NCBI GenBank assembly: GCA_033391075.1
Contig: JAWPMV010000001.1
Span: 7,192,001-7,256,000, forward strand
Source: Bacteroidia bacterium
GTDB lineage: Bacteria > Bacteroidota > Bacteroidia > J057
Length of the DNA stretch: 64,000 nt
Direction of reading: 5' to 3'
The notes beneath the pieces are model-generated. The model had not been told where the DNA came from and made no database searches. It saw only the letters and a list, made by a program, of their open reading frames with translations. Positions 41,514-46,777 of this stretch are shown one piece after another (position 1 is the first letter of the stretch; every line of letters begins with the position of its first letter). A program made the position numbers and the translations under genes.

Positions 41514-43091
41514 ATGGCAGCGGTTAGACCAGACGAAGTTTCTGCAATCTTGCGAGAGCAGCTATCAAACTTCAAATCCGAAGCAGAACTGGAAGAGACC
41601 GGGACGGTACTCCAGATCGGTGACGGTATTGCCCGTATATACGGCCTGACTAAAGTACAGGCTGGTGAGTTGATCGAATTTGAAACCGGCCTTAAAGGCA
41701 TGGTACTTAACCTGGAAGAAGACAATGTAGGTGCGGTACTCTTCGGTGATTCTGAAGGAATCAAAGAAGGAGACAATGTACGCCGTACCGGTAAGATTGC
41801 TTCTTTGCAAGTAGGTGAAGGTCTTTTGGGAAGGGTTATCAACCCACTAGGTGAGCCTATCGACGGTAAAGGACCTATTTCTGGAGAACTTTATGAGTCT
41901 CCTTATGAGCGTAAAGCTCCCGGGGTAATCTTCCGTGAGCCTGTTACAGAGCCTCTTCAAACAGGATTGAAGTCTATCGACTCCATGATTCCTATCGGTA
42001 GAGGACAGCGTGAATTGATCATTGGCGACCGCCAGACTGGAAAGACTGCGATCGCGATTGATACAATCATTAACCAAAAAGAATTTTACGATAAGGGAGA
42101 ACCCGTATTCTGTGTATATGTAGCGATTGGACAAAAAGCTTCTACTGTAGCACAGGTAGTAAAATCACTGGAAGACGGAGGAGCGATGCCTTATACGGTT
42201 ATCGTTGCTGCTCCGGCTTCAACTCCCGCTCCTCTTCAATTCTTCGCTCCATTTGCGGGTGCTGCGATTGGAGAATTTTTCCGCGATACCGGTCGCGCTG
42301 CTTTGGCCATCTATGATGACCTTTCCAAGCAAGCGGTTGCTTATCGTGAAGTATCCCTCCTGCTTCGTCGTCCTCCTGGTCGTGAGGCATATCCCGGGGA
42401 TGTATTCTATCTTCACAGCCGTTTATTGGAGCGTGCTGCAAAAGTTATCAATAATGATGAACTGGCCTCTCAAATGAATGATGTTCCTGAGTCTTTCAAA
42501 GGAATCGTAAAAGGAGGAGGATCGCTTACTGCACTCCCAATTATCGAAACTCAGGAAGGGGACGTTTCTGCTTATATCCCAACCAACGTAATTTCGATTA
42601 CAGATGGGCAGATCTTCCTGGAGTCTAACCTTTTCAATGCAGGTATTCGTCCCGCAGTAAACGTAGGTATCTCAGTATCTCGTGTGGGTGGTTCTGCACA
42701 GATCAAGCCTATGAAAAAAGTTGCAGGTACCCTAAAACTGAGCCTTGCTCAGTACCGTGAATTGGAAGCATTTGCGCGTTTCGGTTCTGATTTGGATAAA
42801 GCAACTCAACTTCAGCTGGAAAGAGGAAAGCGTAACGTACAGCTTCTGATCCAAAAGCAATATAGCCCGGTATCCGTTGAAGAGCAGGTAGCTTCTATCT
42901 ATGCTGCATCTAAAGGATTTCTGGACAATGTTCCTGTAAATAAAGTAGACGCATTTGAAACGGCACTTATTCAGGAATTGAAACATAATCATGCTTCTGT
43001 ATTGGAGCAAATCCGCGATAAAAAGTGGACAGACGACATTCAGGCTAAACTATCTGAAGTCGCAGGAGAAGTTGCTAAATCATTTGCATAA
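41514..43091 (+). CDS. atpA: F0F1 ATP synthase subunit alpha
   Basis: A 525-aa nucleotide-binding, non-catalytic subunit of the F1 head. Seen: [20 protein letters not shown]-loop GDRQTGKT (171-178), [17 protein letters not shown], the ATPase signature [17 protein letters not shown], and a C-terminal helical domain. Its stop overlaps the atpG start by one base. The beta and epsilon genes are not here; Bacteroidota usually keep atpD-atpC at another locus. Confidence 0.97.
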
Positions 43092-43987
43092 TGGCGAATC
43101 TTAAAGAAATACGACTGCGCATCAAGTCGGTACAGAGTACACAGCAGGTGACCAAGGCCATGAAAATGGTTGCAGCCGCCAAATTGCGTCGTGCTCAGGA
43201 CCGTATGTTGCAGCTTCGTCCTTATTCTGCCAAACTCTCCGAAATTATCGGCAATGTGGTTTCTTCGGTAAATCCGGAAGAGATCCCAAGCAAATTGGTG
43301 GATGTTCGCGAAGTAAACAATATTCTTGTTCTGGTCATTACCTCAAACAGAGGTCTGGCCGGTCCTTTCAATGCCAATATCATCAAAGAAACCGTGGCAT
43401 TCCTTAAGGAAAAGCATGGCGGTGATTTGGATGCCGGAAAGGTGCAGTTTATGTGCCTGGGGAGAAAAGGACATGAATTTTTCAAGAAGAGAGGCTATGA
43501 AGTAAATGGAGATAATTTTGATGTCTTCACTAAACTCTCTTTCGAAAAGGTCAATGAAGTAGTTGACCTTGTATTTGGAAAATTCGAATCAGGAGAAGTT
43601 GACAAAGTATATGTCGCTTATAATGAGTTCAAGAATGTAATGTCTCAGATCAAGCGGGTTGAACCTCTGCTTCCTTTAGCCGTCAGTAATTTGGGCGAAG
43701 AGGAAGAAGAGAGTAGTACCAAAGCTGATTATATCTTTGAGCCAGACCGGGAAGAAATCCTGATGGAACTGATTCCTAAGGCACTTAGAACTCAGGTCTT
43801 TCAAGCAGTATTGGAATCCAATGCTTCTGAGCATGGAGCGAGGATGGTAGCGATGGATACCGCTACAGAAAATGCTGAAGATCTGCTGAAAAGTCTGAAA
43901 ATTAGCTATAACAAAGCCCGTCAGGCATCTATTACGACTGAGATCCTTGAGATCTCTGCTGGTGCAGCCGCACTGGAGGCGCAATAG
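43091..43987 (+). CDS. atpG: F0F1 ATP synthase subunit gamma
   Basis: A 298-aa central stalk. N-terminal coiled helix LKEIRLRIKSVQSTQQVTKAMKMVAAAKL-type start (seen as NLKEIRLRIKSVQSTQQVTK), ITSNRGLAGPFNANI in the Rossmann-like centre, and the C-terminal MDTATENAEDLL with ARQASITTEILEISAGAAAL that inserts into the alpha/beta ring. Last gene of the operon; terminator at 44021. Confidence 0.96.
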   Translation: MANLKEIRLRIKSVQSTQQVTKAMKMVAAAKLRRAQDRMLQLRPYSAKLSEIIGNVVSSVNPEEIPSKLVDVREVNNILVLVITSNRGLAGPFNANIIKETVAFLKEKHGGDLDAGKVQFMCLGRKGHEFFKKRGYEVNGDNFDVFTKLSFEKVNEVVDLVFGKFESGEVDKVYVAYNEFKNVMSQIKRVEPLLPLAVSNLGEEEEESSTKADYIFEPDREEILMELIPKALRTQVFQAVLESNASEHGARMVAMDTATENAEDLLKSLKISYNKARQASITTEILEISAGAAALEAQ

Positions 43988-44020
43988 ATTCGAAATCGAA
44001 TTAAGAATTATTGGATATAT

Positions 44021-44057
44021 ATGCCGATACCGAAAGGTATCGGCATTTTTGTTTTTT
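44021..44057 (+). terminator. Terminator of the ATP synthase operon
   Basis: ATGCCGATACC (44021-44031) and GGTATCGGCAT (44036-44046) make a perfect 11-bp stem closed by a GAAA tetraloop, then TTTTTGTTTTTT. Lies 34 bp after the atpG stop. Confidence 0.95.
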
Positions 44058-44059
44058 GG

Positions 44060-44088
44060 GTCATCTCGAAGTTTGGGCTGAGGATGAC
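44060..44088. repeat. Short GTCAT...ATGAC repeat relic
   Basis: Opens GTCATCTCGAAGTTTGG, identical to the first 17 bases (after C) of the 134-bp tandem units at 28427, and ends GAGGATGAC like their third copy, with the whole interior lost. A solo, internally deleted member of that family. Confidence 0.6.
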
Positions 44089-44120
44089 ACGACTTTTCCT
44101 TATTGGCCTTAAACAGAATT

Positions 44121-44206
44121 GTCATCCCGGCCTTAATTCAAGAGCCGGGATCTCTGGTAAATATAAGTAAGCAAGAGGTCCCGGACATCTGGTAGATTCC
44201 GGGATG
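44121..44206. repeat. GTCATCCCGG inverted-repeat element split by the IS
   Basis: Left arm GTCATCCCGG (44121-44130). The right arm reads CCGGGATG (44199-44206) and would be completed by AC at 45415-45416 beyond the insertion sequence, giving CCGGGATGAC, the perfect complement of the left arm. Internal GAGCCGGGATCTCTGG and GAGGTCCCGGACATCTGG are further related pieces. Confidence 0.7.
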
Positions 44207-44220
44207 TACTGTAGTAAAAG

Positions 44221-45186
44221 TCAAATAAAATTGGGATTAAATTGAGTTCTATTTTTAGCTACAGCAAAAGCCTGTCTTAAGAGTTTATGAGCAACCGCAA
44301 CTCTAATGACTTTATGATGTTTACCCTTTTGCTTCATGTTTTCTACCATAGATTGACAAAGAGGATTTACTTTCATCGCGGAAAAGGCTCCCATATAGAG
44401 ATACTTTCTTGCCAAGGCCTGCCCCATTTTTACGATCCTCTCCTTTCCCTTTACTGAGCTACCCGATGTGAAAATACGAGGACATAATCCCAAATAAGCG
44501 ACCAATTGTTTGGCAGACTCAAATCGGCTAAAGTCATGGGTAATACAGATCAACAAACAAGCGGTCTTAGGTCCTATACCTGGGATGCTCATAAGCGACT
44601 GATAGCTTTGTGAACAATGCTCTTTACTAAGGCTGAGCATCTGTTGCTCCAGCCGCTTGATCGAAGCTTGTAGCTGTTCGATCAGATAAAGCTGCTGACT
44701 TCTCACCAAAGGATCCACAATAGGAACTTGATCCATAGCCTCGAGCTGATTACGAAGCATCTGGAGCTGTTTTTGAAATAGGTTAATGCTAGTCAAAAAC
44801 TGCTGTAAGCGGAGAAAAATAGCCGCTGGAGGCTGCCAGAGCTTAATAAAGCTTCGGTGATCCCGTCCATATTGAGCAATTAAGCGCGCGTCTTGCTGAT
44901 CGGTCTTGGTTCGCCTTAATTGCATCTGACTGTAGCGGCGAATGACCAGGGGATTAACTACACTTAGTTTAATCCCATGCTGATGTAAACTAAAGGCCAG
45001 GGATAAATAATAGGGACCACTTGCTTCCATGACACAGAGATCTCCTTGAGAGAGGACTTCGATAAATTTACAATGGCCCGAAGCAGTATTGGAATAGCTT
45101 TTTACCCAGCTTTTCCCACTATCATTAAGACAGACTACTTCAAAGCTTTTTTTGGCAATGTCGATTCCATATACGTTATTATCCAT
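44221..45186 (-). CDS. IS110-family transposase (RNA-guided recombinase type)
   Basis: A 321-aa recombinase. The N-terminal RuvC-like DEDD domain has GIDIAKKSFE (Asp9), CVMEASGPYY (Glu54) and TKTDQQDARLIAQYG (Asp96, Asp99). A coiled-coil follows (about 125-190). The C-terminal Tnp domain has SIPGIGPKTACLL, QLVAYLGLCPRI and SGSSVKGKERIVKMG, where the catalytic Ser of IS110 recombinases lies (Ser241 by position). The frame is intact, so the element may be active. The long non-coding stretch upstream of the start is the place where IS110-group elements encode their bridge RNA. Confidence 0.93.
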   Translation of the reverse strand: MDNNVYGIDIAKKSFEVVCLNDSGKSWVKSYSNTASGHCKFIEVLSQGDLCVMEASGPYYLSLAFSLHQHGIKLSVVNPLVIRRYSQMQLRRTKTDQQDARLIAQYGRDHRSFIKLWQPPAAIFLRLQQFLTSINLFQKQLQMLRNQLEAMDQVPIVDPLVRSQQLYLIEQLQASIKRLEQQMLSLSKEHCSQSYQSLMSIPGIGPKTACLLICITHDFSRFESAKQLVAYLGLCPRIFTSGSSVKGKERIVKMGQALARKYLYMGAFSAMKVNPLCQSMVENMKQKGKHHKVIRVAVAHKLLRQAFAVAKNRTQFNPNFI

Positions 45187-45189
45187 AAT

Positions 45190-45412
45190 CCTATATTTGA
45201 GCAGCTCTGATTCGAACTTATCAATCCTACATTCTGGCTCTTAGCCTACTGTACTGTTCTAGTTTTGGATCAGAGGGAGAGGGAAACCAACATCCCGGAC
45301 GGTTTTTTAAACCAATGACACTTAACGGATTTATCCCCTCTCCTTTTGCTGCTTATTCAAATACCACAAACTAAGAATTCTTTTCTTCCCTAGCTCTTAG
45401 GCAAGTATAGGA
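45190..45412 (-). ncRNA. Candidate bridge RNA of the IS110 element
   Basis: Read on the transposase strand: a 5' stem CTAAGA/TCTTAG (45400-45395 with 45376-45371); a target loop closed by GGAGAGGG/CCCTCTCC (45343-45336 with 45283-45276); directly after it a donor loop closed by CTCTGAT/ATCAGAG (45275-45269 with 45211-45205). The target loop has TGTCAT (45320-45315), a GGTTT/AAACC mini-hairpin and TCCGGGATG (45299-45291), matching the two sides of the insertion site. The donor loop has TACAGTA (45253-45247), a GGCT/AGCC mini-hairpin and TAGGAT (45229-45224), matching the element ends. Exact RNA ends are not visible. Confidence 0.7.
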
Positions 45413-45529
45413 TGACAGACTTTTTCGGGGCGTATTCCCTCCTGGAGCTAAGCGCATAATTGATCCGGCTATCAACATTTTTCTCGAAAATTTCGGATAT
45501 TCATACAAACTACCTCAATACACCACATC

Positions 45530-46777
45530 ATGAATTGGAACATCTCCCAAAAGATTGCATTCCGCTTTTTTGCCGTTTACATTTTCCTTTTTACCATGTC
45601 CAACCAGTTTGTGGCATCGGGGATTTTTGACAAACTCTGGCGAATTGTTGTGCCCTGGTTTGCCAAAAACATCCTGAAGCTGGAAAAAGACATCACTGTA
45701 TTTACCAATGGCAGCGGAGACACTACCTACAATTTTGTAAGCCTTTTGGTATTTGTCCTCATCGCAGCTATCGTGACGGTAATCTGGACAGCCATTAATC
45801 CACAAAAACCTAAAGACTCGAAACTGTTGGATCCCCTGGTGGTTTTGGTGCGCTATTATGTGATTTTCCAGATGGTTACCTATGGATTGGCCAAACTCTT
45901 TTACCTCCAATTTCAGGAACCGATGATCTCCCGCCTGATCCAACCTTATGGAGAATCTTCGCCGATGGGATTACTATGGACCTTTATGGGTTTTTCTAAA
46001 GGCTATACCATTCTTGCAGGAGCAGCTGAGTTTTTAGGAGGAATTCTTCTCCTTTTTAGAAAGACCCGTACCCTGGGGGCAATGGTAGTTTTTGGGGTGA
46101 TGCTCAATGTCATGGCGATGAATTTCTTTTATGATGTACCCGTCAAAATCCTTTCTTCCCATCTTGTTTTCTTGAGTGCTTTTCTTTTGGTGCTGGATGG
46201 AAAACGTCTCCTTAATTTCCTGATCCTGAATAAAGAAGTTCCCGCCAGAGAAATCCAACATTTTATCACAAATCCCAAAATCAGACGGATCAAAGACTAT
46301 ATCAAATGGGGACTTATTAGCATAGGACTTGGATTTTCCTTTTACCAAATGACAAATTTTGTGAAGCAATTTGGCCAAGCAGCAGAGAAACCCCCGCTCT
46401 ATGGTTTGCATGAAGTGGAGTCTTTCGAAAGAAATGGGGAAATCATTCCTCCATTAACCACAGATAGCACACGCTGGGATAAATTGATTGTACAAAGAGC
46501 CGGAAGTGCACGCGTCCATTTCATGCCCAACAATCGCAAGTTTTACGATTTTAAGCCAGATAGTCTTGAAAATTTTGTCCTGATCAACATCAGCGGGGAT
46601 ACGACTGCTATGATAGACACGCTATTTTTTAGTCAGCCAGATAGTAGCCTTTTAGAACTGGAAGGAATAGTGGCCTCTGATACATTGAAGATACGTCTGA
46701 AAAGCCGTCAGAAAAACTCTTTCCTTTTAATGAATCGTGGCTTTCACTGGGTGAGCGAATATCCCCATAATCGATAA
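45530..46777 (+). CDS. DoxX-like membrane protein
   Basis: A 415-aa protein with seven to eight hydrophobic helices in the first 290 residues; the segment FSKGYTILAGAAEFLGGILLLFRKTRTLGAMVVFGVM is the DoxX-type core. The last 120 residues are a soluble beta-rich tail (ARVHFMPNNRKFYDF, FVLINISGDTTAMIDTLFF). Function unknown; DoxX-like proteins are associated with redox and thiol stress in other bacteria. It starts about 115 bp behind the IS, so the insertion could have altered its upstream region. The interval 45415-45529 shows no other feature. Confidence 0.75.
   Translation: MNWNISQKIAFRFFAVYIFLFTMSNQFVASGIFDKLWRIVVPWFAKNILKLEKDITVFTNGSGDTTYNFVSLLVFVLIAAIVTVIWTAINPQKPKDSKLLDPLVVLVRYYVIFQMVTYGLAKLFYLQFQEPMISRLIQPYGESSPMGLLWTFMGFSKGYTILAGAAEFLGGILLLFRKTRTLGAMVVFGVMLNVMAMNFFYDVPVKILSSHLVFLSAFLLVLDGKRLLNFLILNKEVPAREIQHFITNPKIRRIKDYIKWGLISIGLGFSFYQMTNFVKQFGQAAEKPPLYGLHEVESFERNGEIIPPLTTDSTRWDKLIVQRAGSARVHFMPNNRKFYDFKPDSLENFVLINISGDTTAMIDTLFFSQPDSSLLELEGIVASDTLKIRLKSRQKNSFLLMNRGFHWVSEYPHNR

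Follow-up and report, generated by a model that had tools for sequence, protein, structure and literature searches.

The bridge RNA of IS621 has a 5' stem-loop. The IS621 system is reportedly the subject of Hiraizumi et al. (2024; PMC11208158). In its main text, Durrant et al. 2024 (PMC11208160) describe IS621, an element of the IS110 group, together with its bridge RNA, which is encoded in a long left end with the target loop preceding the donor loop. Its left guides base-pair with the bottom strand and its right guides with the top strand. For the IS110 family the same text describes REP-type targets and a promoter at the circle junction, and it puts the share of IS110 elements with a predicted bridge RNA at 85.7%, so that one is to be expected in the element studied here. 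According to the main text of Siddiquee et al. 2024 (PMC11187229), a seekRNA derived from a long non-coding region selects the target in elements of both the IS1111 and the IS110 types. In the IS110 family this region lies mainly upstream, whereas IS1111 members have subterminal inverted repeats (7-17 bp) and a mostly downstream region (PMC11187229). Neither of these two papers uses the word stem 'Bacteroid' in its main text, although their supplementary data may well include Bacteroidota members, and the titles listed by literature searches of openly licensed PMC papers include none on a Bacteroidota bridge RNA, which is weak evidence of absence.

We analyzed an IS110 element in the window, the whole 64,000-nucleotide stretch of DNA under study. 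The region from about 45397 to 45205 is very probably the gene of an IS110 bridge RNA of ~190 nt that guides insertion at GTCAT/CCCGG (the slash marks the insertion point). This reading draws directly on the sequences, the covarying structure, the common site of nine genomic copies and the covariation of right guide and site among relatives. The locus thus provides a well-supported case of a readable guide program in a Bacteroidota IS110 element, and represents a clear example of a recently described system rather than a new kind.

As in IS621, the window RNA lies in a long left end and its target loop comes before the donor loop, and the non-coding region is mainly upstream, as in the IS110-family seekRNA elements. 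The pairing of guides with opposite strands, which the sequence-only reading had likened to that of IS621, agrees with the architecture of the window RNA. REP-type targeting is a further point in common with the IS110 family, and the promoter predicted at the circle junction would be another. Unlike in IS621, where the core is CT, the predicted core lies within CAT here; the right target guide matches ~8 nt, compared with the 4 given for IS621 in the main text of PMC11208160; the predicted promoter is of the Bacteroidota type and not of the sigma-70 type; and the repeat is a different one. ISCro4 (PDB 9t56), compared by protein only, has the IS110 recombinase in common. The IS110 elements of Sphingobacterium sp. 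CZ-2 (L093-L097) possess the same RNA scaffold and a similar donor loop, and their target, too, is a palindromic repeat's GTCAT end; they differ in their guides (CGTCAT and TTCGCAATG), in their target (CGTCAT/TGCGA) and in their recombinase, which is about 41-42% identical. The coordinates of all features are collected in Table 1.

Table 1. Features of the IS110 element, its bridge RNA and its insertion site (positions in the window)
Feature	Position	Strand	Remarks
IS110 element, 1,205 bp without core	44207..45411	minus	Block common to nine genomic copies, with divergence outside
DEDD transposase/recombinase, 321 aa	44221..45186	minus	PF01548 + PF02371
Bridge RNA scaffold (target + donor loops)	45199..45356	minus	Covariance model R1, 112.7 bits, E 2.6e-20
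Target-binding stem-loop	45276..45343	minus	Closed by GGAGAGGG 45343-45336 / CCCTCTCC 45283-45276
Left target guide TGTCAT	45315..45320	minus	Identical to left of target; copies' sites, alignment column, left-flank test
Mini-hairpin between target guides, GGTTTAAAAAACC	45301..45313	minus	Helix 3, 98.8% of relatives' cells paired
Right target guide TCCGGGATG	45291..45299	minus	Complement of CATCCCGGA; CATCCCGG at 9/9 sites; covariation
Donor-binding stem-loop	45205..45275	minus	CTCTGAT 45275-45269 / ATCAGAG 45211-45205; inner stem AACT/AGTT
Left donor guide ACAGTACA	45250..45257	minus	Identical to right end ACAGTA + core CA; homologous column; donor ACAGTACAT
Mini-hairpin between donor guides, GGCTAAGAGCC	45236..45246	minus	Helix 5, 93.5% of relatives' cells paired
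Right donor guide TAGGATTG	45222..45229	minus	Complement of left-end CATCCTA with one bulged U
-7 box TATACTTG of predicted junction promoter	45402..45409	minus	Left end; one base off TAnnTTTG
-33 box TTTG of predicted junction promoter	44222..44225	minus	Right end; 20 nt from -7 box once circular
Left half of target, TGTCAT	45412..45417	minus	CAT 45414-45412 recurs at right junction
Right half of interrupted repeat, CATCCCGG... to ...CCGGGATGACA	44120..44206	minus	Far end 44120 = intact TGTCATCCCGG

Recombinase, element copies and target repeat

The element is bounded by CCTATACTTG on the left (at 45411) and TACAGTA on the right (at 44207), and its recombinase gene is flanked by a non-coding left end of 225 bp (45411-45187) and a right end of 14 bp (44220-44207). 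The recombinase matches the two Pfam domains PF01548 (84.5 bits, cut-off 29) and PF02371 (83.1 bits, cut-off 21.3), as well as the NCBIfam model NF033542, 'IS110 family RNA-guided transposase' (217.4 bits, cut-off 140). Residues 5-317, approximately the whole length, align with the IS621 transposase structure 8wt6 (E 1.5e-37), and the ISCro4 structure is matched with an E-value of 6.9e-37. Aligning the window protein with 12 relatives (n=13) shows no variation at five residues that we take to be catalytic (D9, E54, D96, D99 and S244). The DEDD RuvC-like N-terminal domain, the C-terminal domain with its conserved serine, the long RNA-bearing left end with a short right end and the fixed insertion site, all present here, are sequence features of the IS110 group, whereas the IS1111-group feature of an RNA in the right end is at odds with the left-end position of the RNA and the 14-bp right end. 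The C-terminal half of the recombinase also demonstrates a weak similarity to TIGR-Tas proteins (NF052498, E 9.5e-07, below the cut-off), and a comparison with the TasH chain 21kl gives an E-value of 0.0022.

Relatives of the recombinase were searched for in 13 genomes of the family, 22 of the order, 395 of the class and 395 of the phylum. Single-protein scans of genome contigs and viral contigs found no recombinase relative; relatives were recovered by an alignment query of the contigs, from which the best 80 of at least 476 confirmed were kept. Their recombinases are ~36-46% identical to the window protein, and the closest among the genomes sampled are about 46% identical, a figure that depends on the sample.

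The genome (9.49 Mb, five contigs) contains nine copies of the element, each exactly 1,205 bp long with an open frame free of stops and differing from the window copy at 0-18 bases; beyond these nine, a genome-wide search found no PF01548 match at E<=0.001. By sequence, the copies form two groups that are each nearly fixed, with 0-3 base differences inside a group. All nine are inserted at GTCAT/CCCGG. On the left, GTCAT is present in 9/9 copies and TGTCAT in 8/9, the remaining copy having AGTCAT, and the right flank is CATCCCGG in 9/9, followed by A in six of the nine. The target that the sequence-only reading had rebuilt is therefore borne out by the genomic copies, and the first loop matches the sites of all nine, in one case with a single mismatch at the outermost left base. 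In the window copy CATCC is common to both junctions, and CAT is the part of it that recurs in relatives.

The target is one end of a palindromic interspersed repeat, not a unique site. The 11-mer TGTCATCCCGG has 42 intact occurrences in the genome, a count that includes the far ends of interrupted repeats (e.g., window 44120), and its reversed control has 0. Ten TGTCATCCCGG pairs start 62-83 bp apart in opposite orientation, as expected for the two ends of such a repeat. The repeat interrupted in the window runs from 45417 to 45412, continues after the element from 44206 to 44120, and sits behind genes that presumably correspond to the ATP synthase alpha (41514-43091) and gamma (43091-43987) subunits. 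Among relatives, an inverted 10-mer (at least 9/10) within 200 nt was found at 15/41 sites versus 134/1,778 for swapped ones, and since 26 of the 41 have no inverted copy, targeting of palindromic repeats is claimed for a part of the relatives only.

A lone 45-bp palindrome, TGTCATCCTATACTT...AAGTATAGGATGACA, was observed at L010:1509-1553 (G000:C1:5940277-5940321). Its left part consists of TGTCAT and, after it, the initial 27 bases of the element left end, so that the donor end looks like a repeat built along the same general lines as the target repeat. Another stretch, starting TGTCATCCTATACTTGC, is present ~110 bp past the right end of copy L005.

Conserved RNA structure and guide registers

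The two stem-loops and the short 5' stem described upstream of the transposase by the sequence-only reading all appear in the single-strand fold of the region (-62.1 kcal/mol, z -2.18, 3/200 shuffles as good), which taken alone is a modest result; all strings quoted there are present on the minus strand. An Rfam search with window positions 44000-45600 gave no family match at E<=1, and therefore the covariance search was run with a model built in this analysis. This model, R1, was derived from an alignment of the upstream regions of 27 relatives with the window element left out. The next-best R1 match in the window after the scaffold has an E-value of 0.33, and of 88 further loci R1 matches 84 at E<=0.01; these include the nine copies of the window genome as well as some loci nearly identical to ones used in training.

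RNAalifold predicted 22 pairs on the 27-relative alignment, 21 of them with changes on both sides, and 93.8% of 594 cells are paired. Cells with double changes number 128 versus 32.4 in shuffles (0/500 shuffles as high), and sliding the partners by 1-3 columns lowers the paired cells to 35-57%. Among the relatives, both partners vary at 7/7 pairs of the helix homologous to the outer helix of the target loop, and at 4/4 pairs of the donor inner helix 4. Related elements thus possess a conserved and covarying structure. The succession of left guide, mini-hairpin and right guide that had been claimed for both loops is likewise upheld, as the two mini-hairpins were located and are mostly paired in relatives. 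A search of the IS621 locus (L152) with R1 and with filters off gave a best E-value of 3.6, i.e., no significant RNA sequence/structure match, and the kinship to the type system is consequently one of architecture. In our reading of the IS621 left end (L152), a small hairpin separates the guides, and the donor loop contains GGACAGT, as do those of many relatives of the window element.

A contig of Polaribacter marinus contains two bridge RNA matches (L084:1644-1793 and 1822-1980). Its left end and most of the RNA are tandemly duplicated, and the two units meet at a CAT that follows the left donor guide by a few bases, which reflects either self-recombination or an assembly artefact near the contig end.

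In the first loop, TGTCAT is identical to the left of the target and TCCGGGATG is complementary to its right side (9 nt), as proposed earlier, and the sites of the copies agree with both guides. The left donor guide required a correction: the proposed TACAGTA (45253-45247) is present and matches the element end, but its register is 4 nt out according to the alignment of relatives. When the 85 RNA matches are aligned by structure, ACAGTACAG of the window element falls in the column occupied by ACAGTTCAT in many relatives, and TACAGTA matches as well because of the internal repeat ACAGTACAGTA. The ACAGTACAG register matches the donor ACAGTA plus CA and reaches the shared CA of the core, in keeping with the rule given for IS621 that the core is included in each pairing (main text of PMC11208160). 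The last base of this guide is G where the donor core has T, and the same G is found in the left donor guides of several relatives, e.g., L086, L074, L047 and L070. For the right donor guide, the proposed TAGGAT (45229-45224) is a contiguous part of it and the complement of left-end ATCCTA; the guide could pair with the whole of CATCCTA if one U bulges (TAGGA-U-UG), which we liken to the pairing of IS621, described as discontiguous in the main text of PMC11208160. Both target guides include the CAT in which the predicted core lies; of the two donor guides, the left one extends no further than CA, and the right one would extend to C only with the bulge.

When the two loops were shuffled by mononucleotides, 0/4,000 trials attained the four guide matches together. 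The longest matches are 6 nt for the left target guide, 9 for the right target guide, 8 for the left donor guide (that is, ACAGTACA and not the 7-nt TACAGTA) and 6 for the right donor guide, and taken individually they were reached in 178, 4, 8 and 580 of the 4,000 shuffles, respectively. The signal of this chance test is carried by the right target and left donor guides; the other two are unremarkable alone, and the right donor match by itself is within chance.

Predicted circle-junction promoter and proposed mechanism

In Bacteroidota, the -33 promoter box is TTTG, and the joined ends of the element build a predicted promoter of this type, TTTG-N20-TAnnTTTG, which reads TTTG-N20-TATACTTG in the window element. 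The motif TAnnTTTG at -12 to -5 is given in PMC9723704 as the -7 box of the housekeeping sigma factor of a flavobacterium. Among 59 non-redundant right ends, 47 have a TTG starting exactly 18 nt before the core, compared with 0-6 at other offsets. Both boxes (TTG-N20-TAnnTTTG, with Y allowed at the first T of TTT and G/A at the final position) are present in 21/31 elements; this count merges near-duplicates, omits elements (six named) whose left end has no exact match to 5 nt of the right donor guide, includes at least two elements from a second clade of relatives, and represents the window element by copy L008. A promoter rebuilt in the circle has been described for IS110 elements in general (main texts of PMC11208160 and PMC11187229), and the predicted junction promoter would therefore be the Bacteroidota version of a known feature. 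On this prediction, the RNA would be made from the circle, and an inserted copy would yield it only where the flanking DNA contributes a -33 box.

We propose a mechanism in which transcription and its start, promoter activity, RNA binding, strand exchange and the exact core are all predicted from the DNA. The excised element would close into a circle, and its joined ends would act as a Bacteroidota housekeeping promoter transcribing both bridge RNA and recombinase. The recombinase would bind the bridge RNA, the first loop of which would pair with both strands of the repeat end, TGTCAT with the bottom and TCCGGGATG with the top strand, and the second loop would pair with the joined element ends likewise. 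Strand exchange at a short core inside the shared CAT would then result in insertion at GTCAT/CCCGG, and the insertion site predicted for the window RNA is TGTCATCCCGGA. If the right target guide directs insertion, the CZ-2 guide TTCGCAATG would shift the site to GTCATTGCGA.

Covariation of guides and sites among relatives

Nine identical guides in one genome cannot alone separate RNA guidance from specificity of the protein. One could suppose that the recombinase itself reads the repeat, or its DNA hairpin, and that the upstream structure is a leader of the transposase mRNA with loop matches due to chance or remnants. The end of a palindromic repeat could be recognized by its shape, and a single site and guide set common to all nine copies would be explained. 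This proposal can be set against the relatives, in each of which only the left donor guide served to locate the right end, and the right target guide was then compared with the flank that follows this end. Of the 85 alignment rows, 10 were excluded because their left donor guide matched at fewer than 7/8 positions or because they had no right end, and rows with less than 9 nt of right flank were also left out. A first clade, including the window element, was selected by a flank starting with CA and a guide complement starting with CAT, with only the six following bases scored; L031 was retained in it by name although its flank starts with CC.

The 29 distinct guide/site pairs of the first clade comprise 20 guides, and the right target guide matches on average 5.0 of the 6 bases after CAT at its own site, compared with 2.36 in swapped pairs (0/20,000 permutations). 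With no clade selection, the 51 pairs score 4.47 for own versus 2.22 for swapped sites, and again 0/20,000 permutations were as good. The second clade and leftovers (22 pairs) give no such signal (own 3.77, swapped 3.85; 18,004/20,000 permutations as good); guides and sites hardly vary there, and the element boundary may be a few bases off. The expectation that the loops change with their targets thus holds in the first clade and finds no signal in the second. On the left flank, 106/192 positions matched (7/20,000 permutations as good), mostly through the shared GT, and since first-clade elements almost all have the same left target guide (GTCAT), this comparison tests little. Boundaries were also sought from the donor guides, a procedure that put the left end in the wrong place in several loci (e.g., L069, L047 and most second-clade loci); the right-flank test is independent of it.

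Guide and site vary together even between fairly similar proteins. Elements L103 and L129, with 84% amino acid identity, have the guides AAAAT and GTTAA, which fit their own sites at 5/5 bases and the crossed ones at 1/5. The corresponding crossed values are 3/5 for L087/L098 (72% identity; CCCAG and TCCCG) and 2/5 for L073/L081 (66%; GCTGA and TTCGA), with 5/5 at the own sites in both cases. Among the 14 pairs listed, which are the closest proteins with different guides, one guide fits the other's site equally well in four (L083/L089, L083/L091, L045/L076 and L045/L071). Five copies in genome G060, which appears to be the same genome as Sphingobacterium sp. CZ-2 (L093-L097), have CGTCAT as their left and CATTGCGAGG as their right flank, and their guides are CGTCAT and TTCGCAATG (L062). 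Furthermore, the guides occupy homologous alignment columns, the matching NCBIfam family is named as RNA-guided, and shape is not a common denominator, because the 26 sites mentioned above lack an inverted 10-mer in the next 200 nt. A recombinase that reads the repeat by itself is thus extremely unlikely.

Left guides are by nature identical to the target and to the element ends, and could on that account be flanking DNA that was copied into the upstream region and guides nothing; the tandem duplication in L084 would fit such copying. The right guides, however, are complementary and not identical to the flank, they stand at fixed places between covarying stems, and in most first-clade pairs the match ends at ~8 nt where a captured flank would continue, which leaves this explanation with an almost negligible probability. 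It could also be argued that the region was once a working bridge RNA and that the present copies are relics, given the mismatch of the left donor guide at the last core base and the division of the nine copies into two nearly fixed groups. Against decay, length and reading frame have been kept in all nine copies, the few differences within each group indicate recent movement, and several relatives (L086, L074, L047, L070) share the mismatching G, so that we regard relic status as very improbable. The preferred reading is accordingly that of a bridge RNA recombinase with guides legible letter by letter, and the 85-row RNA alignment with its natural retargeting offers a source for choosing recombinases.

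It is somewhat more probable than its converse that the first clade varies only the right target guide and keeps GTCAT, with the donor left end doubling as the -7 box of a Bacteroidota promoter present in the circle only. The right-half variants following GTCAT in the clade include CCCGG, TGCGA, TTCGA, TCCGA and others, and many of the sites would be ends of palindromic repeats. If this view is correct, the clade would constitute a natural series of one-sided reprogramming, in which the junction promoter would fix the donor while the target guide drifts; such a series and the predicted promoter are what this locus would add to the known system.

Members of the second clade are mostly located at CTTTGTTR sites, and at least five copies, among them L051, L060, L063 and L066, are clustered inside 28 kb of G209:C1 (about 111-139 kb). 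A tyrosine recombinase at 146.6 kb of G209 scores 210.8 against an integron integrase cut-off of 265 and passes NF040815, a model named tyrosine recombinase/integron integrase. Integron attC sites are a possible target of the second clade, which we note as a lead. In a Rufibacter element (L102:1799-1958), the left guide TTATACAAT matches its own left flank at 9/9 positions, and TTATACAATGTTAGCGG, which is like the rebuilt site of this element, occurs in the G209 stretch (L154:76-92).
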